The notes beneath the pieces were generated by a model that did no database searches, was not told the DNA's origin, and saw only the letters and a program-made list of their open reading frames with translations. The position numbers were made by a program, and so were the translations under genes. From a virus, in IMG/VR virus record IMGVR_UViG_3300027977_000051, positions 1 through 49,354 of that record: DNA of 49,354 nt; one strand, given 5' to 3'. This document shows, in pieces, positions 19,801 to 49,354 of this stretch (the stretch's first letter is position 1; every line of letters starts with the position of its first letter).

Positions 19801-22800
19801 CCGTGCCGCCCGCGCTATCATCTGCCACCTGTGCGTCCAGGGCCGCGGTATACAATGGATAGTAGTATCCAGACTGCCCCGAAGTTGTGCCACTGTTGCT
19901 CTGTCCCAATACAGCAAATGGACCCACTGATTTGGTGGTTCCCCCAACCAGTGTCACTGTGGGCGCGGTCACATATCCGCTGCCGCCCTTGGTCACTGCT
20001 ATGGAAGTCACATATTTCTTGTGATTGTCTCTCCAGAACCTGTATGGATATCTGGACATCACTCCCACGTCCGCCACTGGGTCAACGTTCCTGGTATTGC
20101 TTCCGTCATAGAAAGCCGGCAGGTCGAAATCGGTTATGATACCATCTTGTGTGTCTGTGTTGCTGTATCCTAACTTATATTCCCGTATCTTGGTGTGGAA
20201 GGGCTTGACCTCATTGATGTAGTCTTCAACGAAATTCTCATTTCCGATGTTGTAGGTCTTCCTCTGGTCAAGTGGTCTCAGTCGGTTGGTCACGTTTATG
20301 AATGACGTGGTGCTCAACCAGTCCACGTAAAGCTGCTCCTCCAACACCTTCCTCAAACCTATAAAAAATATGTTGTTGTATTCCACTGCCAGGTCGCCCA
20401 CGAATATGTCGTCCCTCAGGGCCCGCAGCACATTGCGAGTCTCGGTGGTTGGCTCCTGGTCGAAGAAATTCTCGTCGAATGTGTCATCCGCGTTGTATCC
20501 GGTGTTGTCGATCGTGTAGTCATACAGAGCAGCGGAGATTTGTATGGTCCCGTTCTGCGTCGCCACGTTCCTCATCTCGTCGGTGGTCTTCTCGAACAAC
20601 TTCCATCCGCCGGTGTCGGCCTTCAGCACTTTCACGATGTCGCCGATCTCCAGCGGCAGAGCATCCATCTCATATTGGAAGTTAACTTGCTTGTCGATCA
20701 ACGTATTCTCGTCATAACCTTTGTCATACCAATCGGCCAGGCGATAATATTTGCTGGTGTTGTACGTCTGTACCTTGGTTCTGTTCCACTCCGGCGCATT
20801 CCATTGATATATCGCCCAGGATCCACGGCTGTTCTCTTCATCGCTGGCAACCAGCACGTTGATGATACCGCTGATGTCTCTGGTGTCGATGTATGTAAGG
20901 TCCGCGTAGCTCTCCACCCTGCTGTCCCATTCTCCCGATGTGCTGGTGGGTTCGGGGTCCTTTGAATTTAAATTGTCATAACCAATGATGTCTGCCAATT
21001 GGTTGTTTTTCAATATGGTGTTGCTGTAGTCTATGATCTCTTTCAGCGCGGCGAACCTATCCAGGTACCAACTCTGCCTCGGCCTGATCCTGTTGCCATA
21101 TCTTTGATTCAATGGAAGAGTGAGATCTGGAACTTCGTTGCCTATCAGATCCTTGCCCACCAAGCTGTCCCACCACTTGTTCTCCAGCAGGGCCTTTGGA
21201 CGATCGTTTTTATCTCCTTGCTTGATGATGTTCCACACAGCGTGTGACTCATCGAGGTTGTCATTTTTCCTGTAGCTTACGTTCAGTATGGTGTTGTCAT
21301 TGACCAGGCTGTTTTTGACATTATAGGTTATCAATGAGTTGTTGCCTGTCACAGCATAATATTTTATTCCTGTGGATAATGGGTTCCTTATCACGTTGGC
21401 CACATAAGCGGCAGTGTTTTTCCTGTCCACCACTGCTTTGCCTTTTGGTGGGAGGAACACAGAGTTCCTGACCCAGAAGTAATAATAGTTCACGTAGCTG
21501 TCCGACACAGGATTATATTTTTGCTTGACTGTGAATACTGTGTTGTCCGGATGCAATGGCCTGCCCGACACGCCGATGGCCAGTCCTGGCGTGGTGTCAG
21601 ACCTCTGGGAATATTCCGATGGCGCAAGTGTAGATTCCACCCACTCATAGATGTCCACTGATGATCCAGGGAAGAGATTGCCCCAATTCTTTGTCTGATA
21701 TTCCACATTCTGCTGCTCGTACCACAACCACCTTACTCTCCCCAAATCCCACCAAACTTCTCCCACATGCTCTTCTCCCCATGCTGTCTTGGCATTGAGC
21801 GTCTTGCCTCCCGTGGCTATGTTGTAAATTGCAGGATCCCATTCTGTCTTGTAATTTATTTCCCTGTCGGCAACTCCCAATATCCTGCCTTTGACGGGAT
21901 CATAATAATCCAGATAGTCAATTATCTCATTCTTTGCCGAATCAAATATAAACACGGAATCTATACGGCTGTCGTCGATGAGGCTTGTTTCAGTTGACAA
22001 CGCAGTCCATGCATAATTTCCCGGAGTGTTGAGGTCGAACACCGTCACAGTGCCGTCGTCAACCCTATAGGTGCTGCCGTCCGTGGTCAACGTGTCGTCA
22101 TCTGGTGATCCAACGAACACAGATGTGTCGGTGATGAATATGCCCCTGCCAAAGTCGTCATTCTCGTTCACGCTGGTGGTCACTAATTTGTCGTCGATAA
22201 CGTACTTGGTGTTGTATTTTGTCGCTGTGAACACTGCTCCAGATCCAATGTTGAGGTCAACTATCAGCGTGTCTCCAAGATCGAACGTGGTTGAGTTGCT
22301 GTCAAATCTCATGGTCCTGCTGTTGCCAAATTTTTCTGCTCCTATCACTATTCTATTCTTCATGCGATTGATCTGCACGGTGGATCCAAATCTTATGTTG
22401 CTGGCCGCTTCGGGGGCAGCTATGGTGTCTGACAGTGTGTAGGTATTTGTCGACCCATCTGCCTTCCATTTGTAGACGTACACTGCGCCGGCGTCGGTCT
22501 GCTCGCCCGCTTCGGTGCCCGGGGCGGAGATCACCAACAGTTCTCCGTCTATGCTCATGGAGATCGCCTCTCCAAAGGCGGTGTTCAACGTGCTGCCATC
22601 AGCGTTGACTCCCTTCAGCGTCTGGCGATGGGTGAATATGTGCTTGGTGCTGCCGTCCTCCACGGTGCTGCCGTCATCGTTGACGCTGCTCCTGGTGAAT
22701 ATCTCCACCATGCCCGCCGATCCCGGGGACACGCTGCTGATGGCTATGATGTCCGCGTTTTCATTGACCGCCACGCGATGACCAAATCTCTTGCCGGATC

Positions 22801-25800
22801 CTGGCTCTGTGCTGAATATCGCTGAGTCTTGCCTCCACACCTGTATGGTGCTGTCTCCCACATCCTTTTGTAGGGTATGCACGTACACCACGCCGGAGTC
22901 TGAGCTCAGTCCTGGCGCCGAGGCGAAGAGGAACTTGGGCCTCGTGGACACCGTGCTGTTGTCCGAAGGTTCAGCTATGGCCACCGACCATCCATAATTC
23001 ATGTTGACCAGCGTGCTGCTGTCGTCCGATGGTGGCAGCACAGTGTGTGACAGGTCGTACTGCTTGTTGGTGTTGTTCCATGCCCAAACTTTCACAATGC
23101 CCACGCCGTCCTGCCTGGTGCTGGTTGGTCCCAGCGTCCTGGTGTAAGGGGCACCGGCCGCTATGTAGTTCTCGTCTGTGCTGATGCACAGTGATTGGCC
23201 TAACCTTGACTCATCAGTATCGCCGTCCGCCATGGCGAAGGATGACACCACTGTGAACAAGTTGCCGGGCAGGTTCTCCTGCCTGAACAGGAAGTGCAGC
23301 GATCCCTGTCCTTGGTCCGGGGCCGCCACGCATATCATCCTGCTGTCGTTCCTGGCCACTATGTTATAACCAAAATCCTGTTGGTTGTCCGCGTCCGGTG
23401 ATGCCAATATTGTGCTGGTGTAGGGATCGGTCTTCTCGTATATCGTCCACCTGCCGTCGGGATTGGTGTCGGCGAACACCCTGTCTCCGTTGACAAAATT
23501 GGTCTGGTCCACGTCTCTGTAGACATTGTAAGATATCCTGTCATTGACCTCATCCATGCTGGAGAACCTGACGCTGACCCATTTGTACACGTTGCCGTAG
23601 GTAACTAATGTGGACTCATCTATCCGCAGGTTCAGAGAGCTCACAACGCTTATGGCTCTGCTTTGATTGAAATTGAATATGACGGAGTTGGCGTTGGGCG
23701 TGCTGATAATCTTGAACACACCATTCAGTTGCGAGAACTGGCTGTTGAGTATCGCAAAATATTCACCCACTTGGAAATTATGCGGATTTGTAAGTATCAC
23801 TTCCACTTGGGTGGCGTTGTTTATCTGCCTCATGGCTATGATTCTCAGGCCAGTTGACGTCAATCGCAGCATGTCCCAATCATTATTTTCTTTTTTGGCC
23901 ATCCAGACTAGGTCATTCTTGGTCACAGATGAAACGTTCAAATTTAATAGATCATTGATGTTAAAGGCCGTGTGGTCCGCATCGATCAACCTAGGATAGC
24001 CAGCAGTTTTGTATTTCTGCACGGAATCTTTGTCAATGCCGGGCTGAGAATAGTCAAACCTAGCAAAAGTATCGTCTGCCATGTACTCCAGGGGTTTGGA
24101 GAATAGCTGTGATTTTATGACCCTAGCTGATTTCTCCCAGTTCGATTGGTCGGCGATATCGTCTAATATTTCTATGCTCTGTATATTGCTGGTGAAGGTG
24201 TCACTCGGCATCCTTATTTGCACTGACTGTGCGTTGTCAACGTTGCCAAATTCTCCCGCACGGATCATCCACTCGGGATAGACTTCCAGATCTATATCCT
24301 CTCCGTAGAACCTGCTCTTGACTAGCTTATCTATGGCGTTCAGCGTGCCCTTCTCACGGATGAATCCCTGATAGAACTTGTATTGGCTTACATCGTTCTG
24401 GAATAGGTTGTCAAGATAATTTCTTGACTGATAACCTGTGAGATGCTGTGCCAATTTCTGCTGTCCTTCATCAAAATTATTGCTCTCCAAGTTGTAAAAA
24501 TCATTGAACTGGGCGATCTTGTAATCAAAATTTGGTATTAGTTGCTGAGTCGGTTTGCTTTTTTTCTGCAGCCAGTTTACTGTTGCGAAAGTGTTTCCGG
24601 AATTATGATTTTTATTGGCCGTGAAAAATCTAGAGTTGTACTCCACTGTGTCACCTATTTGGTAGTCTGTGTTGGCCGTCCATAAGTTTACCTTGGCCTC
24701 ATCAAAAACAAATCCGGGAGAGTAGTAGTCACCATTCCAGTCACCGGTCTTCCACCCGATCAATTTCAATCTCTGTTGCCTGAATCCTGTGGCCAGCTGC
24801 AGGATGATGTCTGAGAACACAGTGGCGTTGTCAAAAAGCAGCAGGTGTTCCTTCTGCACTGCGTTGATGGATATGTTGTATATGCCCGAGTCTGGAAACT
24901 TGCTTACTATCTCGAAAGTGGTGCCCACACGCTTGGTGCTGATGGATTTCTCCGGCATCGTTCGCCCCGAGGCGTCCAGCACAGTGTATTCACCTTGAAG
25001 ATTTCTTAATTTGCCTACCACGCTGTCTCTGGTCACGAGGTTGAATCCTCCAGCGCCTGGGCTCAGCGTGATGGCCGATCCGGGAGCCCATCCCTGCCTG
25101 GTCCAATAGATAAACTCCTTGGCGGACGTTTCCCAGTTTGCCGTTTCCTCCAGCTCCTTGGAGAACCTGTCAAAAACAAATCCCTGCGATTCGAGATATT
25201 TTCCATATCCCGTCAAAAAATCCACCACGGACTGTATGTCCTTGAAAACCGTGCCATAAGTGATGATTTGTTCCACCTGGGAGAAATCTTTGTAAATCAC
25301 TGCTCTGGCGCTGCCGGCCTCGATGTTGTAGCTGTTTCCATTCTTTAGAGGTTGAAAAATTTTGAAGTATGGTTTGATGGTATTGTATCCTATGATCTTG
25401 TAGCCACCCTCCAGAGTACTGCCGTCACCTGAGACAGCTGTGTTGGATTCAACCAACACTCCGGAATATTCAAAAGTGTTTATGGGATTGCTTACCCTGA
25501 ACAGTATCTTATAGTTCTCGTCGGGTATAAATTGCGATCCCGCTGTGGATCCGGGACTCACGCTGTCTGTCAGCACCCTCAGGTTCTGCTTGTCTGAGAA
25601 TCCTCCCAGCTTGTATGACAGTTGCACGTTGAGGTCTTTCATCTTGTCATAGAAAAATACAGCGGGATCGAGATTACATTTGATTAGGTAATTTACTATC
25701 ATTGGCTGGTATCCCGCCGTGATGTATCGTGTGGTGGATTGGGTCAGGGTGTCAACTGTTACCTCTAAGTGATACTTGGCCTGTCGTGTGTTCTGGGCCA

Positions 25801-28800
25801 CCAGCGTGTCCGTGTCTATGATGTTGCCCGCTTTGTTCTCACTTAATCTGCTGTTGTCAAGAAAAAGTCCAAAAAACTTTGCCGGCCTCGTAAGTGCCAG
25901 CAACTTCATCACCGCGAAAGGATATTGTGCGCTCGTCCTCCACGCGGTCTCCGCTGGAGCATGATCACCAAACTTCCATGTCCTGTCAAGTCCGGCAGCC
26001 GCGTAGCTGTCTATAAGTCCGGTCTGCAAAGGTGACAGCAATTGTCCATTGGCATCAACCGGCAGATAATTCAAAAGTCCTGGCCTCACATATCTTGGGT
26101 TAGAAGTGTGCGAGCCGTGATCATATCCACTTGCAAGGTCATTCCATAACAGTTCATTTCCCGAGCTGTATGGTGCTGGACCGTAGTGCTCCACCCACCA
26201 AGCGGGTCTCTCGCTGTAGCCCAACATCTCCCATGGATGTGTGTGCGGCCTGTCGGTGTCATAGAAATGTTTGTATATGCCCCTCCAATATCCAGGCAGA
26301 TATTCTCCATTGATCGAGTCTTTGTTCCTGCTGTAGTTGAAAGTGAAAGCGTTGTTAGATTCGTATGTGTTATTTTTTTGATAGTCCACTCCGTTCCTAC
26401 CAGCCCAAGAATAAAAATCGTGACCCATGATATCATTTATTTCCCTGATGGTGTAATCACCGGCAGTGAATCCCGATGGACTGACTTCTGATTTGGGCAA
26501 TAGCTTGGCATCATATTGAGTCTTGCAGTTGTTGTATATCCTTTTCTCTAATTCCAGCAACACGTCGTCCCTGTAATCTCCATGCGCCAGTGTCCTGCTG
26601 CCGTCGTGCCCTACTATCACATATGCCGGTGACACATAAGTTTCGTCCAACACTTTTTCTGGCCTGTAACGAGGATACATGCCCAGTTTGGTTGGCGTAG
26701 GTGGGATGAAGCTGCCGGTAGTGTCATTGTAATCCTTGATCTGGATCACGTCACCTTCAGTCAATGTGGCGGTTATGTTGACGCTGTCATCTGCGTCACT
26801 GAACGTGTAGTCATAACCATTCAACAGCTGGACGCCATTGAGATACAAATACACCGCGCGGTTGCTGGGGATCGCGTCGTCAAATTGGCTGTCTATGGAA
26901 TATTGAGTCTCGGTGCCGTCCTGCACCGTGTAGGTCCTGGTGCTGACTTTTTCTCCATGACCAACCATGTCCTCATAGTAGAATGGAAAACTGGTGTTCT
27001 TCTGCTTGGTCATTATCCTCAATATCTCGTCCACCGCCTGCGCGGCGTCCTCGTATGGTTTTGCTATGGTGAAGTTGGCCTGGAACGCCTCTTTGAATTT
27101 TTGATATTCCATCGAGCAATAATCGATTGACGATATGGCGTTGGCGTGTTGATCTATGAGCAGGAACACGGCCTGTGGTAGCGGAGAGGAATGCTGCAGT
27201 ATGGTTCCTCCCTTGGTTCTGACATCTGGCAGATCACGTAGGTTGCTGTCTCCCGGGGTGTCGCCGGTCATTTCGACATTTTTCTCATTTATGTCGTGCA
27301 AGTGGTTCATTATCTGGCCAAATGTGAATTCTCGCAATTGCTCATTGAATGGATTCACTGCCAAGTTTTCCGGTATCTGATATAAACCTTTGCCCTTGAT
27401 CTTCTTGGCACTGCTGAAGCATGTTATTTTGACAATGTCTCCCACCGACAGATCGTATGTGAACTTGACGTATTTGTTGGTGGTTCCATTGACCAATGTG
27501 TAATCGGTCGTTATGTTTTGCACCTTATGATTCACGTCCACCTGCACCTCCAGGTCTGGTAGCTGTGCACTGTTGGCAAATACATCTACGGGAAACAATC
27601 TCAACTCATTTGATTCCACTATGAACGTTCTCAACACCCTCTGCCTGCTGGGCTCAGCCATCTGCACCCAGGATGTTCTCGGTAGATTATGGGTCCTATC
27701 AATTATATAATTCACATGTCCGGTACTGAAATTTTTTGATACCATGGAATCCCCGCTCTTGTATGTGAATGATGATGATGCGATGTCGGATGAAAAAACT
27801 ATGTCGCCCACGTTGTTGATGGTGTTGTATTTGACCCTGATACCCAGCACAGTGTCTATGGGTGACGTGTCGGAAGTCTTGTATTCGAACAGCGCCGCGC
27901 CCTCGAATGTGGAATTTGGATATATCGCGGGATCATTGAATGCCACGTGATCATCGTCCTCTATGACAAACAATGGTTTTTGATTGATGGCAGTCTTAGT
28001 TTGTCCCTGTTGCCACGTTGCTGTGGACTCCGTGTAATAAAGTGTTTTGCCTTGGTAGACCGATCCCAGTTCGGCGTAAACGGTCTGTCCATCTTGCGGA
28101 AGACCGTCCGACTCCAGAGTAAGGTTGATCTTGGACACTCCAGCTATGGTCACGAAGTTTACCTTATAGATCCGGTTATTGACCGTGGCGTCGGTGTCGG
28201 CCGTGAACAGCACACGCATGCCCTGGGAAAATGGCACCCCGTCCACGATGTATCCCAAAGAATTTGGAATGGCAGAGAACACGTCTGTGGTGAAGGCATC
28301 CACCAGCGCCACGGAGTTTAGTCCCTGTGTACCGTGATCGAACAATTGCAGTCCGGAATCAAATTCTATTATGGGCCTCTTGGCCCTGCTGGTCTCTGAC
28401 AGTGACGTGGCGTTGCCGTTGACCTGATCCGCGGCCGCGATCGCGGACCTGTGGAACCATCTGTTGTATCTGCTCCAGGCGTTGTTGTCAAAGCTGTCTC
28501 GCTTGATGGTGATGTAGTCCGGCGTTTCGGGTCTGTAGAAACTGATGGCGTAGGGTCGTGTGTCATAGGCCACACTATCGTAGAGCTCAGTGGTCTCTGT
28601 TGAATAATGTTCGGGAGTTATCAATTTAGCAGTGTCCGTGAGAGTGATATGATCTCCCACTCCTTCCACATAATATTCTCTATTGGCGTATGCGGCACTG
28701 GTGGTGTTTGATCCAAATTTAACTTTCATTCCATTGGTCAGTTTGGTGCCAGTTCCCATGGTGTAATTTTTGCTGCCCAATATTTCTTTTTCCACATTAA

Positions 28801-29686
28801 TTTTGGTGGCCGCGGTGATGGTCTTGATTTGGAGTACTCCTTGCATAGCCTGGTGATTGCCGCATTGATAGTACAATATGTCAGGTGCGTTGTTCGGCAC
28901 GGTGAATGTCAATGTGCCCACCTGGGTGCCGTTGCCTGTGACAGACGTGGAATATATCACCGACGTGCTGCCGTCCTCGGCTATGCCGGTCTTGAATGGC
29001 TCCGTCATGATGTAGAATGGATGCCCGGTGACCTGGAGCGCGAATTTATAGGTGTTTCCCCTGTACAAGGTCAGGGTTGGGTTGGCAGTGTCTCCGTGTG
29101 TGCTGAAAGTGTAGGCACCGGTGCCCGCGTTGGCAACCGTGATCTCTGTGACAGAGTTTGGTCCGTTGTTCGATATCAACACTGGGTTGGGACCTTCTGG
29201 CAGCCAGTAATACTCCCTGTAGTTCACGAGTTTGTCAAAATCCACTGCTGGGTTCCAGGCGTAGACTGTTTGCTTGTTCAACCTGCCATGGTCATCCACG
29301 TTGCCGCCAAAGAACTTTATTTGGTTGATGTAGTCATCATAAGTTGCCGTGAACTTCACCTGGTCTTCGGGATTGATGGATGATGTGTCCTTGTCAGTAT
29401 AGGTCACAGTGGGCTCCAGCTGATAATTTGCCCTGTCCTCGCTGGTTGATTCTATGTAGCTGTCCGCGGCCTGCCTGGTGTATGAATATTCTCTTCCGAT
29501 GTATCCGTCTAATCTGGTCAGGCTGCCGGGCTGTATAAGTTGGTCCAGGGTGCTGGTGAGGAACCTGTGGTTGTTGTCGGTCCTGTAGAAGGCCGGCAGA
29601 TGTGCAATGGACCTGCGCAGCGTCACCCCCTGTGCGTCCGTAACCACCTCATAATTTGTCTGGCTATTGATAGGAGAATCTGCCAT
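16811..29686 (-). CDS. Giant baseplate/tail structural protein (4291 aa) with cupredoxin-like domain and FG-GAP-like propeller
   Basis: One unbroken reading frame of 4291 residues, three bases after gp6 and in the place of T4 gp7 (about 1030 residues), so a wedge or fibre-like baseplate component is likely. The N-terminus (SIAHLPAFYRTDNNHRFL) is typical of giant structural proteins beside gp6 in marine T4-like phages. Residues about 203-290 look like a cupredoxin, with H222, C275, H278 and M281 in the type-1 copper order. Residues about 2080-2550 hold seven FG-GAP-like units (FGYNIVARND, LGQSLCISTD, FGHRVAVNEN, FGEAISMSID and others). From about 3500 to the end come repeated beta modules of the type GDGSTTxF...VxVDG...DYTV. 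At least 15 DGST tetrapeptides occur. It probably assembles as part of the baseplate periphery. Confidence 0.8.
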   Translation of the reverse strand: MADSPINSQTNYEVVTDAQGVTLRRSIAHLPAFYRTDNNHRFLTSTLDQLIQPGSLTRLDGYIGREYSYTRQAADSYIESTSEDRANYQLEPTVTYTDKDTSSINPEDQVKFTATYDDYINQIKFFGGNVDDHGRLNKQTVYAWNPAVDFDKLVNYREYYWLPEGPNPVLISNNGPNSVTEITVANAGTGAYTFSTHGDTANPTLTLYRGNTYKFALQVTGHPFYIMTEPFKTGIAEDGSTSVIYSTSVTGNGTQVGTLTFTVPNNAPDILYYQCGNHQAMQGVLQIKTITAATKINVEKEILGSKNYTMGTGTKLTNGMKVKFGSNTTSAAYANREYYVEGVGDHITLTDTAKLITPEHYSTETTELYDSVAYDTRPYAISFYRPETPDYITIKRDSFDNNAWSRYNRWFHRSAIAAADQVNGNATSLSETSRAKRPIIEFDSGLQLFDHGTQGLNSVALVDAFTTDVFSAIPNSLGYIVDGVPFSQGMRVLFTADTDATVNNRIYKVNFVTIAGVSKINLTLESDGLPQDGQTVYAELGSVYQGKTLYYTESTATWQQGQTKTAINQKPLFVIEDDDHVAFNDPAIYPNSTFEGAALFEYKTSDTSPIDTVLGIRVKYNTINNVGDIVFSSDIASSSFTYKSGDSMVSKNFSTGHVNYIIDRTHNLPRTSWVQMAEPSRQRVLRTFIVESNELRLFPVDVFANSAQLPDLEVQVDVNHKVQNITTDYTLVNGTTNKYVKFTYDLSVGDIVKITCFSSAKKIKGKGLYQIPENLAVNPFNEQLREFTFGQIMNHLHDINEKNVEMTGDTPGDSNLRDLPDVRTKGGTILQHSSPLPQAVFLLIDQHANAISSIDYCSMEYQKFKEAFQANFTIAKPYEDAAQAVDEILRIMTKQKNTSFPFYYEDMVGHGEKVSTRTYTVQDGTETQYSIDSQFDDAIPSNRAVYLYLNGVQLLNGYDYTFSDADDSVNITATLTEGDVIQIKDYNDTTGSFIPPTPTKLGMYPRYRPEKVLDETYVSPAYVIVGHDGSRTLAHGDYRDDVLLELEKRIYNNCKTQYDAKLLPKSEVSPSGFTAGDYTIREINDIMGHDFYSWAGRNGVDYQKNNTYESNNAFTFNYSRNKDSINGEYLPGYWRGIYKHFYDTDRPHTHPWEMLGYSERPAWWVEHYGPAPYSSGNELLWNDLASGYDHGSHTSNPRYVRPGLLNYLPVDANGQLLSPLQTGLIDSYAAAGLDRTWKFGDHAPAETAWRTSAQYPFAVMKLLALTRPAKFFGLFLDNSRLSENKAGNIIDTDTLVAQNTRQAKYHLEVTVDTLTQSTTRYITAGYQPMIVNYLIKCNLDPAVFFYDKMKDLNVQLSYKLGGFSDKQNLRVLTDSVSPGSTAGSQFIPDENYKILFRVSNPINTFEYSGVLVESNTAVSGDGSTLEGGYKIIGYNTIKPYFKIFQPLKNGNSYNIEAGSARAVIYKDFSQVEQIITYGTVFKDIQSVVDFLTGYGKYLESQGFVFDRFSKELEETANWETSAKEFIYWTRQGWAPGSAITLSPGAGGFNLVTRDSVVGKLRNLQGEYTVLDASGRTMPEKSISTKRVGTTFEIVSKFPDSGIYNISINAVQKEHLLLFDNATVFSDIILQLATGFRQQRLKLIGWKTGDWNGDYYSPGFVFDEAKVNLWTANTDYQIGDTVEYNSRFFTANKNHNSGNTFATVNWLQKKSKPTQQLIPNFDYKIAQFNDFYNLESNNFDEGQQKLAQHLTGYQSRNYLDNLFQNDVSQYKFYQGFIREKGTLNAIDKLVKSRFYGEDIDLEVYPEWMIRAGEFGNVDNAQSVQIRMPSDTFTSNIQSIEILDDIADQSNWEKSARVIKSQLFSKPLEYMADDTFARFDYSQPGIDKDSVQKYKTAGYPRLIDADHTAFNINDLLNLNVSSVTKNDLVWMAKKENNDWDMLRLTSTGLRIIAMRQINNATQVEVILTNPHNFQVGEYFAILNSQFSQLNGVFKIISTPNANSVIFNFNQSRAISVVSSLNLRIDESTLVTYGNVYKWVSVRFSSMDEVNDRISYNVYRDVDQTNFVNGDRVFADTNPDGRWTIYEKTDPYTSTILASPDADNQQDFGYNIVARNDSRMICVAAPDQGQGSLHFLFRQENLPGNLFTVVSSFAMADGDTDESRLGQSLCISTDENYIAAGAPYTRTLGPTSTRQDGVGIVKVWAWNNTNKQYDLSHTVLPPSDDSSTLVNMNYGWSVAIAEPSDNSTVSTRPKFLFASAPGLSSDSGVVYVHTLQKDVGDSTIQVWRQDSAIFSTEPGSGKRFGHRVAVNENADIIAISSVSPGSAGMVEIFTRSSVNDDGSTVEDGSTKHIFTHRQTLKGVNADGSTLNTAFGEAISMSIDGELLVISAPGTEAGEQTDAGAVYVYKWKADGSTNTYTLSDTIAAPEAASNIRFGSTVQINRMKNRIVIGAEKFGNSRTMRFDSNSTTFDLGDTLIVDLNIGSGAVFTATKYNTKYVIDDKLVTTSVNENDDFGRGIFITDTSVFVGSPDDDTLTTDGSTYRVDDGTVTVFDLNTPGNYAWTALSTETSLIDDSRIDSVFIFDSAKNEIIDYLDYYDPVKGRILGVADREINYKTEWDPAIYNIATGGKTLNAKTAWGEEHVGEVWWDLGRVRWLWYEQQNVEYQTKNWGNLFPGSSVDIYEWVESTLAPSEYSQRSDTTPGLAIGVSGRPLHPDNTVFTVKQKYNPVSDSYVNYYYFWVRNSVFLPPKGKAVVDRKNTAAYVANVIRNPLSTGIKYYAVTGNNSLITYNVKNSLVNDNTILNVSYRKNDNLDESHAVWNIIKQGDKNDRPKALLENKWWDSLVGKDLIGNEVPDLTLPLNQRYGNRIRPRQSWYLDRFAALKEIIDYSNTILKNNQLADIIGYDNLNSKDPEPTSTSGEWDSRVESYADLTYIDTRDISGIINVLVASDEENSRGSWAIYQWNAPEWNRTKVQTYNTSKYYRLADWYDKGYDENTLIDKQVNFQYEMDALPLEIGDIVKVLKADTGGWKLFEKTTDEMRNVATQNGTIQISAALYDYTIDNTGYNADDTFDENFFDQEPTTETRNVLRALRDDIFVGDLAVEYNNIFFIGLRKVLEEQLYVDWLSTTSFINVTNRLRPLDQRKTYNIGNENFVEDYINEVKPFHTKIREYKLGYSNTDTQDGIITDFDLPAFYDGSNTRNVDPVADVGVMSRYPYRFWRDNHKKYVTSIAVTKGGSGYVTAPTVTLVGGTTKSVGPFAVLGQSNSGTTSGQSGYYYPLYTAALDAQVADDSAGGTGTSTIFTFVEYPGLEFHMPTTGQNIANTDRPSGYDVYTTADNTQATATAIVQGGSVTSIRLLTPGTNYTATPTVVLTGGGAGGTTPANFARAYANLTNDVVRDIHTTIKFDRVQSTATVLLWEANRDYAFNDLIRYEQGFYKVNSGFTSTAEFKDGLPYLTKLRGDEPYLTAAERTLGMYDPISGMPGNELSQVMTGVDYGGVMVTGLAFDNSQGWDRSPWYDNPWDSYGLSRVQTFYGDGSTTGFTFSTAPSATDVYTVYINGVRQTSLVFRGDGSTKTFTVIPDDSAVAGTGDEIQFILFNDDGVLTPTDDKTLDSIITGGLFGSAVGIAPSDIILEGDGFVTPETSYAPEENLPGSMFDTVDIKVYTTPESGVPFIMMKNYIGNASTTTFAIGQMPGTLESVIVMIDGQTKRLTTDYTVDVDAKTITMLAAPAANAKISIKSFAMSGSNYIVINTLIGDGSTTSFVTAARESFQLDSAMSQLYVTVDGVPTTAYTYTTANKLITLTFNTAPAIGKSIQIAAFNQPAGSGRAQAEIRAEQKVHDGGNRYTLTYPSGSIGPFSGLTMIEVGGKILRGPDNTYYAGDGSTVTYSLGTDPANAVTSATQAQVFVNGTKKDLGTDYTVNLGTQQVQLVSAPASTDVVAVSVLLDNHYYTEGADIIFRPAQLATDGITLTSGTTFSTTTFNNALGMNQRREIFAGNSTGEFVLQDTPMNSDYLFVWLNGQALTQGYDFTFGSNYFVDGKKLKISGISLTATDRVDVMYFAVESAKLATGFRIFKDMLNRTFFKRISSDDTTALAAALTEDATSITVADGSKLATPPGGSVPGVIFIDKERIEYFIKNNNTLSQLRRGTLGTGIRTHTSGTQVVDASGSQTVPYAETVFTKTSLSDGSTAQFPTSIAAATPNELDVFVGGKRLPHISEDGSTANFTVDGSTANVVLASVPAAKVQVKVVQKRGRVWYTTGSGTASDGKGLQKSTTNQARFIAGEPTNAPE

Positions 29687-41901: not shown

Positions 41902-43681
41902 GAACCTCACAGCGAAAAACTTCATGAGCGTGGGCAACCACACGCAGGCGGTGAACTTTGACGGCAAGCATCTCGTTCTGGTGATCGGAGAGAACATGGA
42001 CTTGGGTGGTGATGACGCAGGTGCCAGGAACGGCACAGGCAAGACCACCATAATCAATGCTATAAGTTATGTTTTCTTTGGTGAGGCGCTGACACAGATA
42101 AGGCGAGATAACCTGGTCAATAAAACCAACGCCAAGGACATGTTGGTCACTGTGAACTTTGAAAAGAATGGTGTGAACTACAAGATCGAGCGAGGCAGGA
42201 AGCCACAGGTGTTGAGATTTTACATCAATGAGGTGGAGCAGAACTCCGGTGCGGAAGGCACAGAGGACAACAACGAGGCGCAGGGAGAGAATCGCGAGAC
42301 ACAGGAAGAAATCAACAAGCTGATCGGCATGACTCATGCCATGTTCAAGAACATCATAGCCCTCAACACATACACGCTGCCGTTCCTGGCTACAAAACAA
42401 GCGGAACAGAGAGAGATCATAGAGCAACTGCTGGGCATAACTTTGCTGAGCGAAAAGGCAGAGCTGCTGAAAGAGCAGATGCGTGTGGCAAAGCTGGACC
42501 TGGCGGAAGAAAAAGTGCGACTGGACGCTGTCCTGGTCAGCAATAAGAAAGTGGAAGAGTCAATAAAAACATTTGAATTGAGAAGCGCTGCATGGCAGAC
42601 GCAAAAGAACACAGATATCGAAAAATTTGTGTCAGCAATAGAAGAATTGGAAAAGGTGGATATACAAATAGAATTGGAAAACCATAAACGACTAGCCAAA
42701 CACACAGATGATAGCAAAACCCTGAGGAATCTGGAAAAAGAGAAAAGCTATCACGAAGATTCTTTGACCAAGGCCACCAGACAGAAAGAACAAACTGTAA
42801 AAGATCTAGAGTATGCTGAACGGGCCACCTGTCCCACCTGTGAACAGGATCTACACGGAGAAAAACATGAACATCTCGTGGATGAACTTCGAAAAGATCT
42901 TGCGGAACAGACCGAATATGAGCAAACACTGTCTGCGAAACTAAAAGATATACAAGACAGCATAACAGCCATTGGCGATCTGGGCACTGTGCCTGACACA
43001 TACTATGATTCAATCGATGAAGCATATAACCATAAAGGTTCCGTGGAAGATTTAAAAAGACAATTGGAGCAAACTCGTGCAAAAGAAAACCCATATCAAG
43101 AGCAGATCGATGAGTTGAACAAAACGGCAGTGCAAAAAATAGATTATACCAGAGCTAATGAGATGGAGGACCTATATCGACATCAAGAATTCTTGTACAA
43201 ACTACTAACTGCCAAAGATTCTTTCATAAGGACCAGGATCATAGAACAAAACTTGACCTATCTCAACCAACGACTGGCATTCTATCTAACGCAGGTCAAG
43301 TTGCCGCACACAGTGGTGTTCTTATCTGACTTGAATGTGAGGATCGAAGAGCTAGGCAGAGAGTTGGATTTTGATAACTTGAGCAGAGGTGAGAGAAATC
43401 GATTGATACTGAGCCTGAGCTGGGCATTCCGTGATGTGTGGGAAGGTCTTTATCAACAGATCAACTTGTTGTTCATTGATGAGTTGATAGATGCTGGCAT
43501 GGACGTGTCTGGTGTGGAGAGCTCCATGGCAGTGTTGAAGGAGATGAGCCGGACGCAGAACAAGAACATATTCTTGATATCACACAAGGACGAGTTGGTA
43601 AGCAGAGTGAACTCGGTATTGAAGGTCGTGAAGGAGAACGGATTCACCAGCTACGCCAACGACGTTGACATTACTGCGTAG
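41888..43681 (+). CDS. 46: Recombination endonuclease subunit gp46 (Rad50-like)
   Basis: 597 residues. Walker A is GARNGTGKTT (45-54). A central coiled coil holds the zinc hook CPTC (C315, C318). The ABC signature LSRGE begins at about 498, and Walker B ends in FIDE at about 529-532. These are the Rad50/SbcC features; T4 gp46 is 560 residues. It acts with gp47 in processing DNA ends. The start overlaps gp47 by 14 bases. Its end overlaps the convergent PLP-enzyme-like gene by 11 bases, so no terminator fits between them. Confidence 0.96.
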   Translation: MLTIRNLTAKNFMSVGNHTQAVNFDGKHLVLVIGENMDLGGDDAGARNGTGKTTIINAISYVFFGEALTQIRRDNLVNKTNAKDMLVTVNFEKNGVNYKIERGRKPQVLRFYINEVEQNSGAEGTEDNNEAQGENRETQEEINKLIGMTHAMFKNIIALNTYTLPFLATKQAEQREIIEQLLGITLLSEKAELLKEQMRVAKLDLAEEKVRLDAVLVSNKKVEESIKTFELRSAAWQTQKNTDIEKFVSAIEELEKVDIQIELENHKRLAKHTDDSKTLRNLEKEKSYHEDSLTKATRQKEQTVKDLEYAERATCPTCEQDLHGEKHEHLVDELRKDLAEQTEYEQTLSAKLKDIQDSITAIGDLGTVPDTYYDSIDEAYNHKGSVEDLKRQLEQTRAKENPYQEQIDELNKTAVQKIDYTRANEMEDLYRHQEFLYKLLTAKDSFIRTRIIEQNLTYLNQRLAFYLTQVKLPHTVVFLSDLNVRIEELGRELDFDNLSRGERNRLILSLSWAFRDVWEGLYQQINLLFIDELIDAGMDVSGVESSMAVLKEMSRTQNKNIFLISHKDELVSRVNSVLKVVKENGFTSYANDVDITA

Positions 43682-44483
43682 TTTCACTTAATAATTTTCC
43701 AATACCAAACAATTTGTTTGTGCCTTCTTCTCTTAAAACATGTATGCTATTGGTGGGGCGCAAGTTATATTTCTGCGCCAGCTCATTGTGTTTCTGCCCA
43801 TGTGTGTTCCAGCCATAATCTTTGTCTAGGTTCTTCATTATGTAATAACCGCACGCTGTCAGGCTTTCATTGACCATGTCAAATTTGTTCAACATTGTGA
43901 TGGAATCTATTGTTCTTTGCCTGGACCATCGCAATCCTATCCTGTTCCATGTAAGGTCGAGGCCCTTGGACATGCTCATTCCAAAACTTTTTATGCAAGG
44001 GTGATCAAAATCAAAATTCAGACCTCGGGCAGATTGGAACCAGCATCCGTCGATGTGAATATCAATTTTTTTCTGTTCGCATTCTTTTAATATTTCGTCC
44101 CAGCGAGGATCTACGTCGCAATAACGCCAGGCAGGCACGCTGACCAGCAATGGCACTCCGGGCTGTAGTTCTCCAATGTTGGTGGGTCTCTTTCCCATGA
44201 TAGAATAATATGCATATTCGCATGGCAGAATTTGTATTTTCCATGAATATTTCTGTATCAAGGATTCTATGAAATTGGTGCATCCAATAATGATGTCCCT
44301 GCAAGGGAAGGCCTGCCACCCCGTCAAGTCGTTTAATTTTGTGGACTGGAACCATTCGTTGGCCATCTCTATAAATTTTAATTTATGAGGATTGATCTGC
44401 TGCTGTGCAAACCAGTTTTCTTTCAACTTCTTTATGTAATTGTCACTTATTGGATACAATTTTTCCGTCAAATTATTGTTCAT
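43671..44483 (-). CDS. PLP-dependent aminotransferase-like protein
   Basis: 270 residues. SFGMSMSKGLDLTWNRIGLRWSR (about 166-188) looks like the PLP Schiff-base loop of fold-type I aminotransferases, with Lys173 in SMSK and an Arg at 181/185. IHIDGCWF with D145 fits the Asp that contacts the PLP ring nitrogen, and LPCEYAYYSIM fits the substrate-side strand. CTNFIESLIQKYSW near 68-81 could be the phosphate-binding helix start. It is shorter than most such enzymes (about 400), so the C-terminal small domain may be reduced. It is the last gene of a three-gene operon with an amidinotransferase and a 2OG oxygenase and overlaps the preceding gene by 11 bases. Substrate unknown. Confidence 0.6.
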   Translation of the reverse strand: MNNNLTEKLYPISDNYIKKLKENWFAQQQINPHKLKFIEMANEWFQSTKLNDLTGWQAFPCRDIIIGCTNFIESLIQKYSWKIQILPCEYAYYSIMGKRPTNIGELQPGVPLLVSVPAWRYCDVDPRWDEILKECEQKKIDIHIDGCWFQSARGLNFDFDHPCIKSFGMSMSKGLDLTWNRIGLRWSRQRTIDSITMLNKFDMVNESLTACGYYIMKNLDKDYGWNTHGQKHNELAQKYNLRPTNSIHVLREEGTNKLFGIGKLLSETTQ

Positions 44484-45513
44484 TCAATATATACACCCCC
44501 TTCTCACCTTTGTTGGGCCAATAGTCCAGCATGGGTCCTGCCCTGTAAACGTCCGAACTTAGGCAATGCAAGCCGCTGTCCCAAAAGTAACACATGTTGA
44601 AAGGCGTCACGTGCGGTGTCATTCCTATGCTCTTGAAGAAACTAAATGCTGATTCGTCCTCTTTTATTACCAAAATATTCTTTTCATCGATCAATATACA
44701 ATTTACTGAAAAAATGGTCTCCCACGGATTGCCAAGCCATGACTCTGCCACTGACAGTATCTCACTATTGTAGTTGGCGTAGTGTGCGCCTGGCAGCCAC
44801 CACTTGAAGTTATGGCTGGGCACACGTGGTCTTTCTATAAGATAATGTACTTGCCAATCGGGAAAACTTTTGTCATATTGATTTTTGTAAATCGTTGACA
44901 GCAGCGCCCCCGGCTGCACGGGGCAAAATACTCCATCTGTGTGATCTCCTGTGTTGGTCACATTGACTCTATGAAATTTTGACAGTTCGGCGGCAACAGT
45001 CATCGTGTGTGCTTTGGCCTCGGCATTTTGTTCATCGTAGTCTATGTAAATGTCCATGCCCATCCTGGTGACCGCGGGAAAGTTGACCCAACTCATAGAA
45101 TCCTTGGATCTGTCTAGTACCGCTACTTTCTGTCCGGCTTGTTTATATGAATCAATTGCGTGCTGGAACACCTCTATTCCGGAATAGTATTGCGGATTTA
45201 TATATAATGTATCGTCTATGGTTATGGCCCAGTCTGCTGGTGCCATGGGCGGCTTAATTAATTTTCCTTGCCTGTCCAGATACTTGTCAATGGTGGGTTC
45301 GAACTGGGGCCTGACTACATTCACACCCAATTTCCGTAATGTATTGCAGATCCCATCCAGTTCCTTCTGCGTGTTTTCAGTAATTTGGCAGAAAACGTCC
45401 TCTGTCCTGGAATCAAACATTGAATAAAAATGCTGCGGATACGTGTCGCCGATCCAAATTTCTTTAAGAGGATGGATCTGTGAATAATTTTGTATATTTT
45501 GCAAAGTATTCAT
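44473..45513 (-). CDS. Amidinotransferase-family protein (glycine amidinotransferase-like)
   Basis: 346 residues. The family triad is visible: Asp154 in RMGMDIYI, His191 in GDHTDGVF and Cys317 in GLHCLSSDVYR, the nucleophile that forms the amidino-enzyme intermediate. The N-terminus HPLKEIWIGDTYP and the loop RPQFEP also fit the guanidino-modifying fold (transferases and deiminases). Likely reactions are transfer of an amidino group from arginine to an amine, or hydrolysis of a guanidino compound. No signal peptide is seen. The start at 45513 lies directly after the oxygenase gene ends, and its end overlaps the PLP gene. Such genes are found in some marine phages; their product is not known to me. 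Confidence 0.8.
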   Translation of the reverse strand: MNTLQNIQNYSQIHPLKEIWIGDTYPQHFYSMFDSRTEDVFCQITENTQKELDGICNTLRKLGVNVVRPQFEPTIDKYLDRQGKLIKPPMAPADWAITIDDTLYINPQYYSGIEVFQHAIDSYKQAGQKVAVLDRSKDSMSWVNFPAVTRMGMDIYIDYDEQNAEAKAHTMTVAAELSKFHRVNVTNTGDHTDGVFCPVQPGALLSTIYKNQYDKSFPDWQVHYLIERPRVPSHNFKWWLPGAHYANYNSEILSVAESWLGNPWETIFSVNCILIDEKNILVIKEDESAFSFFKSIGMTPHVTPFNMCYFWDSGLHCLSSDVYRAGPMLDYWPNKGEKGVYILNEQ

Positions 45514-45514
45514 A

Positions 45515-46096
45515 TTATCTATATCTCATGAATATGCTTTTCCTCACTCCATCACGCACGGCATATTCGGTGGCGTGGAAACTTTTTAAATTGTTCAACA
45601 ACGCATAGCCTGAATTTTTTTTGTAGTCAAAATTTACTAACCGCTTTCCTTTTCTCTCTATGTAGTTGTCATACAGCGCGGTGCCTGGCTGAGTGGAATC
45701 GTCAATGTAAATCTGCAGGCTGAGCTTGATCCTCTGATCATCTATGTGTGGATTCAGCGTGTACCCTGGATGATCAAACCATATGTCCGCCTTATCTGGT
45801 GACAGTGCCTCAGAAAATTTCTCTTCCAGTGCATTGATTATTTTTTTATTTTGGAAAAAAATATTCAATTCCTTGGAAATCTTTTCTGTGTATGACACCT
45901 TGCTGCGGAAAATTCTTATATCTGTGTCGTGTTGTTCCAATCCCTCGCATTTAAAATTTGTTTCATCTAAATCTAATTTCTCAAGGAAGTGGTTATCAAA
46001 AAAATTACCGTACTGTTGGTAAAGCAAACCATCTAAATTTACCAAAGGTGATTTTTTTATTGACTGGACCACGAAATCTACGCTATCATTGTACAT
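45515..46096 (-). CDS. 2OG-Fe(II) oxygenase-like protein
   Basis: 193 residues. The metal and 2-oxoglutarate ligands of the double-stranded beta-helix family are in place: HxD in NPHIDDQ (H117, D119), the distal His174 in SFHATEY and Arg185 in VRKSIFMRY. The fold strands LSLQIYIDD and SGYALLNN surround them. Such enzymes hydroxylate amino acids, proteins or nucleotides. It is the first gene of the operon with the amidinotransferase and the PLP-like enzyme, which suggests hydroxylation of an arginine-derived or guanidino compound, as inference. The ATG at 46096 lies in a 38-base gap shared with a divergent small gene. Confidence 0.75.
   Translation of the reverse strand: MYNDSVDFVVQSIKKSPLVNLDGLLYQQYGNFFDNHFLEKLDLDETNFKCEGLEQHDTDIRIFRSKVSYTEKISKELNIFFQNKKIINALEEKFSEALSPDKADIWFDHPGYTLNPHIDDQRIKLSLQIYIDDSTQPGTALYDNYIERKGKRLVNFDYKKNSGYALLNNLKSFHATEYAVRDGVRKSIFMRYR
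46060..46089 (+). promoter_or_regulatory. Sigma70-like promoter for the 63-aa gene
   Basis: TTGACT (46060-46065), 18 bases, then TATCAT (46084-46089), on the plus strand inside the start of the divergent oxygenase gene. The predicted start near 46096 gives a leader of about 39 bases. Confidence 0.45.
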
Positions 46097-46134
46097 GTGT
46101 TAATTAATTAGCATCTAACAAAGGAGCATAAAAA

Positions 46135-46326
46135 ATGTCAACTACACATGACTCGATAATGGCAGCCATTCAGACCTATTCTGAAGAGAACCAAAAATTC
46201 ACTGAAAAGGGAATTAAGGCATCGGCTACAAGAGCTAGGAAAGCACTAGCAGAACTTGGCAAGCTGATCAAGGCAAGAAGAAAAGAGATACAAGAAACTA
46301 AGAACGCTGAAAAGAACGCAGCCTAA
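46135..46326 (+). CDS. Small basic helical protein, 63 aa
   Basis: The ATG follows AAAGGAG, a strong site. The protein is a Lys/Ala/Glu-rich helix with two parts, HDSIMAAIQTYSEENQKFTEKG and SATRARKALAELGKLIKARRKEI. I know similar small proteins from marine phage genomes but no function; the basic, Ala-rich composition resembles histone-H1-like or DNA-compacting peptides. It lies alone between the oxygenase operon and the terminator of the right-hand unit. Confidence 0.72.
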   Translation: MSTTHDSIMAAIQTYSEENQKFTEKGIKASATRARKALAELGKLIKARRKEIQETKNAEKNAA

Positions 46327-46336
46327 TTATTTTTTT

Positions 46337-46368
46337 CAAAAAACTCTGTGTGCTCGAGCACACAGAGT
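46337..46368 (-). terminator. Rho-independent terminator after the third radical SAM gene
   Basis: A perfect 26-base palindrome (46343-46368, arms of 13 centred on CTCGAG) can form a hairpin with a TCGA loop. On the minus strand it is followed by TTTTTT. It begins 6 bases after the radical SAM stop codon. Read from the plus strand it has no T-run after it. Confidence 0.85.
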
Positions 46369-46374
46369 GGTATC

Positions 46375-47643
46375 CTAAAGTTCTACCAACCAAGGAAACA
46401 CTTTCTTCCAATTTGTGTTTCGTCGCTCATCAAGTTTAGATAATATAACTTTTAAATTCTGAATCTTTGCATTGTTCTTTTGCTTATCGCGAAAGGAATC
46501 CACTATGCCTCTCCAATACTTTTTTGTAGAAATCTCCCTGAGATTCTTTTCAGGCATCAGTTCCGTGCAATATTCCAACTGCTTATGAAAAAAATCCTGC
46601 CCCGCTATGGTCGGATCAAAGCTCTTTGAGTCGGTATTAAAACTGTGAATGATCCTGTTGGAAGATCTGGTGCTGTTCCACACGTTTATTTGTTTCAATA
46701 ATGAGTCAAAATAAGGCAGCGTCAATATCGTTATTGCGGAATTGATTCCCACCGTGATCTTATGGCATGCCAACAACTTTGCAAAATTTTTCTGCCATTT
46801 TTCGAGGCTCATGCCATAGCGCACATATTCGGTTTCGGTCGTCAGGCAATCTATGCTGGCTATCACTTTGACGTTGTAAATTTTTTTCTTTTCTACCAGA
46901 TTATTGATCTTCTCCAGGAATTGGTCAAATCTCTTCTCCTCACATTTGAGGTTGGTTATCAGCTGGAACGTGAGTGAATCATTGGGATGATCGTTCCAAA
47001 AATCCAAGCATTCGTCAAGTTCTGGGATAAGCAATGGTTCACCTCCCAGCAATGAAAACCATCTCAGTTTTTTGTATCTTTCGTCTTGCTTTAAATATTT
47101 CCAAAAGTCCTGTTTCTGCTTGTCGTAATTGGGATTGTGTTGTTCCTCGTTCACGTCGCCCACTCCTGTGGAATCCAATTCGGAAATTTTGCTATGTTTT
47201 TTATTTTCTTCCTGCCACTTGGAACTGAAATGTGGTCCACAGTACACACAGCTCATGTTGCATGTGTTCTTGAAATACACTTCCAACATGGTTGGCGTCA
47301 CATGCACCGCGGATGCATCGTTGGCCAATTCGGGGGCATTTAGATTGATGTCCGTCTGCTGAGATAATTGGTGCATTCTATCGCTGTATCCTCCCGTGTC
47401 TTCAACTTTTTTACAGTAGTTGCAATCATTTGATGGCCATTCCCCCTGTAACATCTTGTTCCTGTCGTCTATCTTCTTGGGTACATTGTGGAACGATCCG
47501 AAATCATCCACGGGAATCATGTGCTTCTGTGTGCGGTGACACGAGCTGGTGGTGCCGCTTTGGAAAAAGATATTGCTCCATCCCCACTTCAGAAGGCATG
47601 CAGTTTTGGTGTTTATGGGAAAGAGTTGTTTTTTGCCGGACAT
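46375..47643 (-). CDS. Radical SAM protein, third copy
   Basis: 422 residues from the ATG at 47643; the longer frame runs into the preceding gene. The motif CNMSCVYC gives CxxxCxxC, and LGGEPLL is the GGEP motif. N-terminal Cys in CLLKW (C16), SSCHR (C35) and CNYC (C73, C76, then KKVEDTG and SDR) repeat the pattern of the copies at 1-527 and 1158-2552. The C-terminus has no SPASM-type Cys set. It is more divergent from the other two than they are from each other. It belongs to a minus-strand unit with a GIY-YIG gene and ends in a strong terminator. Substrate unknown. Confidence 0.88.
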   Translation of the reverse strand: MSGKKQLFPINTKTACLLKWGWSNIFFQSGTTSSCHRTQKHMIPVDDFGSFHNVPKKIDDRNKMLQGEWPSNDCNYCKKVEDTGGYSDRMHQLSQQTDINLNAPELANDASAVHVTPTMLEVYFKNTCNMSCVYCGPHFSSKWQEENKKHSKISELDSTGVGDVNEEQHNPNYDKQKQDFWKYLKQDERYKKLRWFSLLGGEPLLIPELDECLDFWNDHPNDSLTFQLITNLKCEEKRFDQFLEKINNLVEKKKIYNVKVIASIDCLTTETEYVRYGMSLEKWQKNFAKLLACHKITVGINSAITILTLPYFDSLLKQINVWNSTRSSNRIIHSFNTDSKSFDPTIAGQDFFHKQLEYCTELMPEKNLREISTKKYWRGIVDSFRDKQKNNAKIQNLKVILSKLDERRNTNWKKVFPWLVEL

Positions 47644-47650
47644 GCAATAT

Positions 47651-47908
47651 TTAGGCTGTAAACCATCTCCTGGCCACTGGTGTTGAGTGCGTGAGGCACC
47701 ACATGGTCCATTCCTCGTCGGTGAACTTGGCCCGCACAATTATGCTGTCGGAAGCGAACTCCAGATCACATAAATTTTTAAGGTAAAGGTCATGCACGTG
47801 GGGAAAGTGCGACAACCATCCCTCGAACAATATCTGCGCCTGGAATGCATCGTCATATTTGCCATGTGTTTTTAATTCACCCACGATTCTCAATGTGCGC
47901 TGTGTCAT
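47651..47908 (-). CDS. Small hypothetical protein, 85 aa
   Basis: Starts MTQRTLRIVGELKTHGKYDDAFQAQ at 47908, overlapping the GIY-YIG stop as ATGA. The sequence is mixed helix and strand with no known motif; FTDEEWTMWCLTHS stands near the end. Its place between an endonuclease and a radical SAM gene, with coupled translation, argues that it is real. A substrate or partner of the radical SAM enzyme is possible but not shown. Confidence 0.55.
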   Translation of the reverse strand: MTQRTLRIVGELKTHGKYDDAFQAQILFEGWLSHFPHVHDLYLKNLCDLEFASDSIIVRAKFTDEEWTMWCLTHSTPVARRWFTA

Positions 47909-48399: not shown

Positions 48400-48832
48400 G
48401 GCACTCTTAGATCAAAAAAAAATTTCCTATAGGCACTATAGCGTCTTTGGTAAAACAGTGAACTACTCCCAAGCAGTTGGGCGGCGAATCACTTGGCGCA
48501 ACAGGCAAATGATGGAGCTCTGGGAAACAGATCCAACTCCAGGCACGCACAGGACGATCACACATGGACCGTGCATGCCCGCGTTGCAATGAATGAGCTA
48601 ACGGGTACAGCGCAACCGCCCGGCTACAGCAGCGATGTGTGATGACTGCGAACTCACCACATGCGGAGTTTGAGTCGGTTCGGCTGGTCACAGCCGAATC
48701 ATGACTGCTCATCTACCACATACGGCGCACGATGCTTCGCATCGCGCTTGCAATCACATTAGGGGAAAGAAACGAGCGCAAGCGAGTTTCAGATGTGCTC
48801 TGCACATCTCTCAGACTGTTTAAATATCACGC
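48400..48832. other. Intergenic region with several hairpins and an imperfect direct repeat
   Basis: About 430 bases without a convincing gene. It holds a small hairpin at 48468-48481 (CCCAA/TTGGG), one at 48679-48698 (8-base arms, loop GTCA), one at 48730-48744 (6-base arms), one at 48769-48790 (GAAAC/GTTTC outer arms), and one at 48791-48809 (8-base arms, loop TCT). Two 25-base copies, 48642-48666 and 48701-48725, match at 19 positions (ATGACTGC ... ACCACATRCGG). A 77-codon plus-strand frame at 48359-48592 has no Shine-Dalgarno sequence and no motif. No tRNA fold was found. The hairpins lie upstream of the gene at 48833 and could form a structured leader or small RNA. Confidence 0.45.
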
Positions 48833-49354
48833 ATGGAACTGATATTCGATCACATCACGGGCAAGCAGGAGCAGCAGGATTTGCAATATTTCCGATTGCG
48901 AGGATTCCTGGACGGCAACGAAGAGGACGATCCCCTGGATCAGGGCTGGCTGGCGGACGACACGCCGCACCAGGGCCAGGAGTGCTGGTACCAGTCGCGC
49001 AGCACACGCATAGAGCTCAGGCCCGGCCTGATAAAAAAACCGCGCAAAAGAGAAGTGCGCGGGCAGCGCATCGAGATGCTGGAGATACGCCCCGTGGACA
49101 GCATGCTCAAGCTGACCGGCATGGAGAGGCTGTACCACGACTTCCTGGCCAAGAAGGGCTATCGCGACCTCTACAACCCCATGACGCACATACACCAGCG
49201 AGACAGCTTCCTGATCTACTACATCGACGACGTCAGCCACATGATCGGCTTCACCAAGATCAAGAAATACCTCTGGCAGGAGGACGTGCATGACGAGCAG
49301 TTCGAGGACGGCCAACTCAGCGCCATTGAGACCCACATGCACTGCTCCGCCGAG
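48833..49354 (+). CDS. Hypothetical protein, N-terminal part (cut by window edge), possibly GNAT-like
   Basis: 174 codons are visible. It begins MELIFDHITGKQEQQDLQYF and is charged, with RPGLIKKPRKREVRG followed by EMLEIRPVDSMLKLTGMERLY and SFLIYYIDDVSHMIGFTKIKKY. The last resembles a strand-turn-strand of a GNAT-type fold, but no acetyl-CoA loop is seen in the visible part. There is no Shine-Dalgarno sequence before the ATG. Codon use is rich in G/C third positions, like gp55. It follows the hairpin region. I do not recognise the protein with certainty. Confidence 0.55.
   Translation, partial: MELIFDHITGKQEQQDLQYFRLRGFLDGNEEDDPLDQGWLADDTPHQGQECWYQSRSTRIELRPGLIKKPRKREVRGQRIEMLEIRPVDSMLKLTGMERLYHDFLAKKGYRDLYNPMTHIHQRDSFLIYYIDDVSHMIGFTKIKKYLWQEDVHDEQFEDGQLSAIETHMHCSAE

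Follow-up and report, generated by a model that had tools for sequence, protein, structure and literature searches.

The question raised by this locus is whether three tightly packed genes in a phage genome, encoding an oxygenase, an amidinotransferase and a PLP-dependent enzyme, form a dedicated pathway and, if so, to which product. The window, i.e., the whole stretch of DNA analyzed here (49,354 bases, one IMG/VR virus record), comes from a marine virus of bacteria and is T4-like, with gp46/gp47-type SbcC/SbcD genes, a late sigma factor and structural genes; at 16811-29686 it holds a single ORF of 4291 aa, which is very large for a phage gene. As the first-pass annotation had reported, three adjacent or overlapping minus-strand genes are present at 43671-46096. 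They encode a 2OG-Fe(II) oxygenase-like protein of 193 aa (OG2, 45515-46096), an amidinotransferase-fold protein of 346 aa (AMT, 44473-45513) and a short fold-type-I PLP-dependent protein of 270 aa (PLPL, 43671-44483). OG2 and AMT are separated by 1 nt, AMT and PLPL share 11 nt, and a further overlap of 11 nt joins PLPL to the end of the convergent plus-strand gp46 gene (43681). Since all three frames are kept in relatives, these are real genes and not chance ORFs. The trio is AT-richer than the window as a whole (GC content of 0.375-0.44 vs 0.49), as a mobile cassette might be.

On its upstream side, the trio is followed by a 38-nt gap (46097-46134, minus strand), the likely place of a leader or promoter, where a sigma-70 promoter signal was no better than chance. 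Beyond the gap lie a divergent plus-strand gene (46135-46326) for a small basic conserved protein of 63 aa, hereafter c9, which in related phages stands at the edge of the cassette, and a strong terminator-like hairpin of 11 pairs plus a T run (46343-46368, minus strand). Because these two elements separate the trio from the next minus-strand gene (46375-47739), to which the hairpin belongs, the operon comprises the trio alone. That gene encodes a twitch-domain radical SAM protein (NCBIfam NF033640, 218 bits vs a cut-off of 170) and is a variable accessory neighbor of the cassette: in related phages its slot is either empty or occupied by a DUF6473-like protein, in some loci a radical SAM gene is again close to the cassette, and in one locus (L044) a B12-binding radical SAM gene is found on the cassette's other side.

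The identities of the three enzymes are secure. Pfam, PHROG and NCBIfam searches with the single window proteins of the trio returned nothing useful, and the SBP_bac_3 and bleomycin-binding matches of window proteins are due to chance; the three classes proposed earlier are nevertheless all supported by residues and profiles and, for AMT and PLPL, by folds. In the OG2 ORF, the HxD...H...R signature (iron triad and 2OG-binding Arg) had been placed correctly at H117 (45746-45748), D119, H174 and R185, and it is invariant in 42/42 relatives. The window OG2 itself has neither a Pfam match nor a match in a direct PDB sequence search, and Pfam 2OG-FeII_Oxy_3 (PF13640) weakly matches 10 of 39 relatives (best E 3.4e-4). 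The invariant motif supports the assignment of OG2 as a 2OG-Fe(II) oxygenase-like protein.

Regarding PLPL, no Pfam PLP family matches the window protein, a direct PDB sequence search gave no match, and Pyridoxal_deC weakly matches 13 of 46 relatives. The AF2 model built from 46 relatives has a pLDDT of 93.2, and Foldseek relates it to HisC (E 2.5e-8), with a probability of 1.00 to HisC, CobD, NifS and others, so that the third protein does have the aminotransferase-type fold-type-I architecture expected of it; in BFVD, one uncharacterized protein from an uncultured phage is a close fold match. D145 (44049-44051) and K173 (43965-43967), already recognized in the first reading, are invariant in the 46 aligned relatives, as are S170, R181, G183 and R185. 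K173 is the predicted Schiff-base Lys, D145 the predicted pyridine-binding Asp and S170/R181 the predicted phosphate-binding Ser and Arg. Their spacing (K173-R181 and D145-W148) equals that of aspartate aminotransferase (K258-R266 and D222-Y225), and an alignment with AvtA, at an E of only 0.2, also places D145 and K173 in register. At the sequence level, no invariant Arg occurs beyond R185 in the 46 aligned relatives, and the usual alpha-carboxylate clamp is therefore not seen.

The assignment of AMT rests on PDB profile matches, an AF2 model, Foldseek and a residue table. A profile of eight phage AMT sequences matches human AGAT (E 3e-17) and SxtG (2e-16), and also HsvA and StrB1. The AF2 model (pLDDT 88.8) is predicted to adopt the propeller fold of guanidino-modifying enzymes and lies nearer to transferases than to deiminases, with SxtG (Foldseek E 9e-20), AGAT, HsvA and StrB1 scoring better than deiminases and DDAH (1e-8 to 1e-9). 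H191 (44941-44943), D193 and C317 (44563-44565) are invariant in 97/97 phage homologues and D94 is kept in the 96/96 that have a letter at that position; H191, D193, C317 and D94 align with H303, D305, C407 and D170 of AGAT. The catalytic triad of AGAT is D254-H303-C407 (PMC2844391; PMC3684758). By alignment, not by superposed structure, D254 of AGAT corresponds to N144 of AMT (45082-45084), and D154 of AMT to D264 of AGAT; of the triad D154/H191/C317 put forward in the first-pass annotation, H191 and C317 are correct, while D154 is not the catalytic Asp. The expectation that catalytic residues are kept in relatives is thus borne out for OG2 and PLPL and only partly for AMT: among the 97 phage homologues, the N144 position is N in 39, S in 18, D in 6, E in 3 and another residue (P, C, H, V, A, etc.) in the rest, and is therefore acidic in only about 9/97. 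The FDAAE motif is retained in an alphaproteobacterial cellular amidinotransferase recovered alongside the phage homologues, and the phage AMTs thus form a family with a changed triad.

The three genes also belong together outside the window. Scans of viral contigs provided 59 PLPL loci and, for AMT, the best 80 of at least 568 loci. Among the 52 distinct PLPL loci, OG2 is found within 2.5 kb in 42 (directly adjacent in 32), AMT in 31 and both in 26, which confirms the supposed co-occurrence of the trio in marine phages; in about 40% of the PLPL loci, however, no AMT can be seen, and AMT without PLPL is frequent in marine phages. The main layouts are c9/OG2/AMT/PLPL beside gp46, as in the window; AMT/c9/OG2/PLPL beside gp46; AMT/c16/PLPL next to a DnaB-like helicase, OG2 being convergent; and c16/PLPL/AMT without OG2. 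On the PLPL tree, loci of like layout group together, yet the layout changes several times, and since the layouts vary, with OG2 and PLPL co-directional or convergent, the OG2-PLPL pairing is not mere inherited order. The AMTs beside PLPL occupy at least four separate places in the AMT tree, where supported branches force at least five label changes; this scatter would reflect either repeated joining or repeated loss, and it fits repeated joining. The trio is a movable unit conserved in marine phages.

Other proteins accompany these genes. The c16 protein (about 160 aa; L002 6926-7471, L063 3154-3651, L075 8054-8524) is conserved and, in one of the layouts, common in the interval from AMT to PLPL; it matches no family. 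In L149, where PLPL is missing, a relative comes after AMT. Kinship of c16 with the N-terminal region of the GDSL-like protein of L004 was considered and rejected, the c16 profile not matching that protein. An ATE_C-like phage protein, which resembles the C terminus of arginyl-tRNA-protein transferase (E 2e-9), adjoins many marine phage AMTs (L132 5076-5525, L121, L118, L134 and others), accompanied by a protein named c5 and a DUF6614 protein, and a relative probably runs off the end of the window (about 48800-49354, plus strand). Together with AMT, c5 and DUF6614, it possibly forms a second arginine-linked unit. A motif search for further oxygenases beside AMTs outside the PLPL loci found none, and an oxygenase beside the L118 AMT has a weak PF13759 match.

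The PLPL, OG2 and AMT families are essentially viral. About fifty distinct forms of PLPL come from contigs of marine phages, yet PLPL is unnamed in any profile library and is absent from the isolates of the phage collection; no PLPL or OG2 relatives were found in cultured phages, which have only a few AMTs. In the genome collection, the one strong PLPL match comes from a Pelagibacter MAG, on a contig whose synteny is that of a phage (L152), and among 289 genomes of that MAG's class PLPL was found on that contig alone, together with one remote, weak PLP relative. This single MAG suggests a SAR11 host for part of the group.

The order in which the enzymes might act can be approached from a second partner of OG2. 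A reciprocal OG2 scan gave 56 loci which, pooled with the other scans, amount to 65 distinct OG2 loci, of which 48 have PLPL, 16 have a mini-SDR-like protein and 1 lacks both. The mini-SDR-like protein, of about 159 aa, carries TGGNGxLA and YGLEK motifs and occupies the PLPL slot after OG2 (L170 4043-4492, L177 4040-4519, L174 2327-2806 and L210 1433-1912, all on the minus strand). It is about half the size of the SDR enzymes that it matches, is not recognized by Pfam, and weakly matches dTDP-4-dehydrorhamnose reductase (E 0.019) and a nucleotide-sugar epimerase PHROG (E 0.042). AMT is found in 0/7 SDR loci with enough flank, compared with 12/23 strictly adjacent PLPL loci (Fisher p=0.024, a value that ignores shared ancestry). 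As judged from gene content, an exchange of SDR and PLP enzymes after the oxygenase would fit carbonyl chemistry, and the tracking of PLPL by AMT would fit an AMT acting on an amine.

Mainly because of this swap and of the absence of AMT from the SDR loci with enough flank, the order can be proposed as oxidation, amination and amidination. In such a mini-pathway, OG2 would add an oxygen function to an acceptor carbon, giving an alcohol or a carbonyl; PLPL would convert the carbonyl to an amine, or make the amine otherwise; and AMT would move the amidino group of arginine via Cys317 onto this amine, yielding a guanidino product and ornithine. The same logic of oxidation, transamination and amidination is known from the inosamines of streptomycin. 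We infer the substrate, order and product of this route from the genes, and hold it tentatively, at somewhat less than an even chance; a guanidino product can reasonably be inferred. Several observations count against the route: the catalytic Asp254 of AGAT is an Asn in AMT and is non-acidic in the majority of homologues, and the transfer step might therefore be slowed, altered or lost; PLPL has no invariant carboxylate-binding Arg beyond R185; and AMT and PLPL are often found without each other. The acceptor would most likely be a small molecule, with sugars and nucleotide sugars as candidates, and less likely a DNA base. The fuller picture, in which marine phages, some probably infecting SAR11, run a three-enzyme pathway to a guanidino small molecule, possibly a host inhibitor or signal, with a minimal PLP enzyme, an Asn-triad amidinotransferase and an interchangeable SDR/PLP step, is doubtful as a whole.

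It is conceivable, though unlikely, that a surface glycan of the virion or host, or a nucleotide sugar, is the target of the cassette, by sugar oxidation, amination and amidination. In cyanophage S-SCSM2R, an amidinotransferase and two 2OG oxygenases adjoin KdsA, KdsB and glycosyltransferases, and in the marine single-cell virus AG-345-D19 (L010, 745-6358) genes for a carbamoyltransferase and two GDSL-like proteins are lined up with AMT and a weak sulfotransferase match; the weak resemblance of the mini-SDR to dTDP-sugar reductases and an FkbM methyltransferase adjoining PLPL in L042 point the same way. However, such glycan neighbors are scattered, the window cassette is surrounded by replication genes and not by glycan genes, Glycos_transf_2 (GT2) gives only sub-cut-off matches in 5/12 module-carrying records, and DegT-type sugar aminotransferases are absent from the top fold matches of PLPL.

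A rather improbable reading is that AMT has become a hydrolase or a non-catalytic relative and is no longer an amidinotransferase, the trio then being without a guanidino product. In its favor are the loss of the catalytic Asp254 in most of the family and the FDAAE motif of the cellular amidinotransferase. Against this, the invariance of the Cys, the His and the two guanidinium-binding Asp argues for kept chemistry, as does a structure nearer to transferases than to deiminases. In papain, an Asn is the third triad member and orients the His; by analogy, Asn or Ser at the N144 position might still do so, and N144 would then permit amidino transfer.

Less probable again is that the enzymes act on arginine itself, by hydroxylation and PLP-dependent oxidation of the enduracididine or capreomycidine kind, and lead to an unusual guanidino amino acid. 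VioC, MppO and MppP are oxygenases and PLP enzymes of arginine-derived guanidino amino acid pathways; the enzyme classes match them in kind, and AMT has the fold of enzymes that use arginine-type donors. Nonetheless, these oxygenases and MppP have solved structures, and the OG2 and PLPL profiles found no PDB sequence match to them, so that the earlier parallel with known guanidino amino acid pathways receives no support from sequence; PLPL also lacks, past R185, an invariant Arg for the alpha-carboxylate. Hypermodification of a DNA or RNA base ending in an amine or guanidine is very improbable: although known phage base-modification pathways include PLP, radical SAM and 2OG enzymes and the cassette adjoins gp46/gp47 or a DnaB-like helicase, a thymidylate-synthase (ThyA)-family hydroxymethylase or a C5 methylase is present in 0/12 module-carrying records (56-316 kb, possibly incomplete), ThyX being found in two, which leaves the nucleotide modification envisaged at first unsupported as regards the standard phage routes.

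Viral auxiliary genes for creatine synthesis are among the closest known systems: glycine amidinotransferase is among the genes listed in a lake virus set (PMC8226683), and creatine-pathway genes are reported to be virus-enriched in the ocean, guanidinoacetate methyltransferase strongly so (PMC11360552). The passages of these two sources that deal with these genes describe no PLP or oxygenase partner, and the window cassette shows no creatine step. Pseudouridimycin-type clusters use an oxidoreductase, an aminotransferase and an amidinotransferase together (PMC8724604), the same combination as here; in contrast to them, the cassette has no nucleoside genes, and the kinship of the families is at the superfamily level only. 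No description of the trio, of the PLPL family or of the AMT triad change was found in the open PMC literature, within which the enzyme kinds are known and the combination and variants are new. The cassette represents an assayable, predicted phage-encoded pathway and, if a guanidino compound is made, phages would build a specialized metabolite from host arginine.

As to the individual enzymes, OG2 shares the HxD...H...R motif with prolyl-4-hydroxylase-type 2OG-Fe(II) oxygenases (PF13640), with the weak family matches mentioned above, and differs from them in being tied to a PLP protein or a mini-SDR-like protein. PLPL has the fold and the Asp-Lys-Arg PLP site spacing of HisC, CobD and AvtA, but is 270 aa long as opposed to 315-400 aa for most matches and, unlike ordinary class I/II aminotransferases, displays at the sequence level no invariant C-terminal carboxylate-binding Arg. 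Finally, AMT has the fold of AGAT, SxtG, HsvA and StrB1 (Foldseek E 1e-19 to 1e-16) and keeps the equivalents of Cys407, His303, Asp170 and Asp305, whereas its identity to these enzymes is only about 15-18%, it belongs to a large marine phage clade, and it carries Asn144 in place of the catalytic Asp254, an Asn-type triad which, if a guanidino compound is made, would extend what is known of amidinotransferase chemistry.
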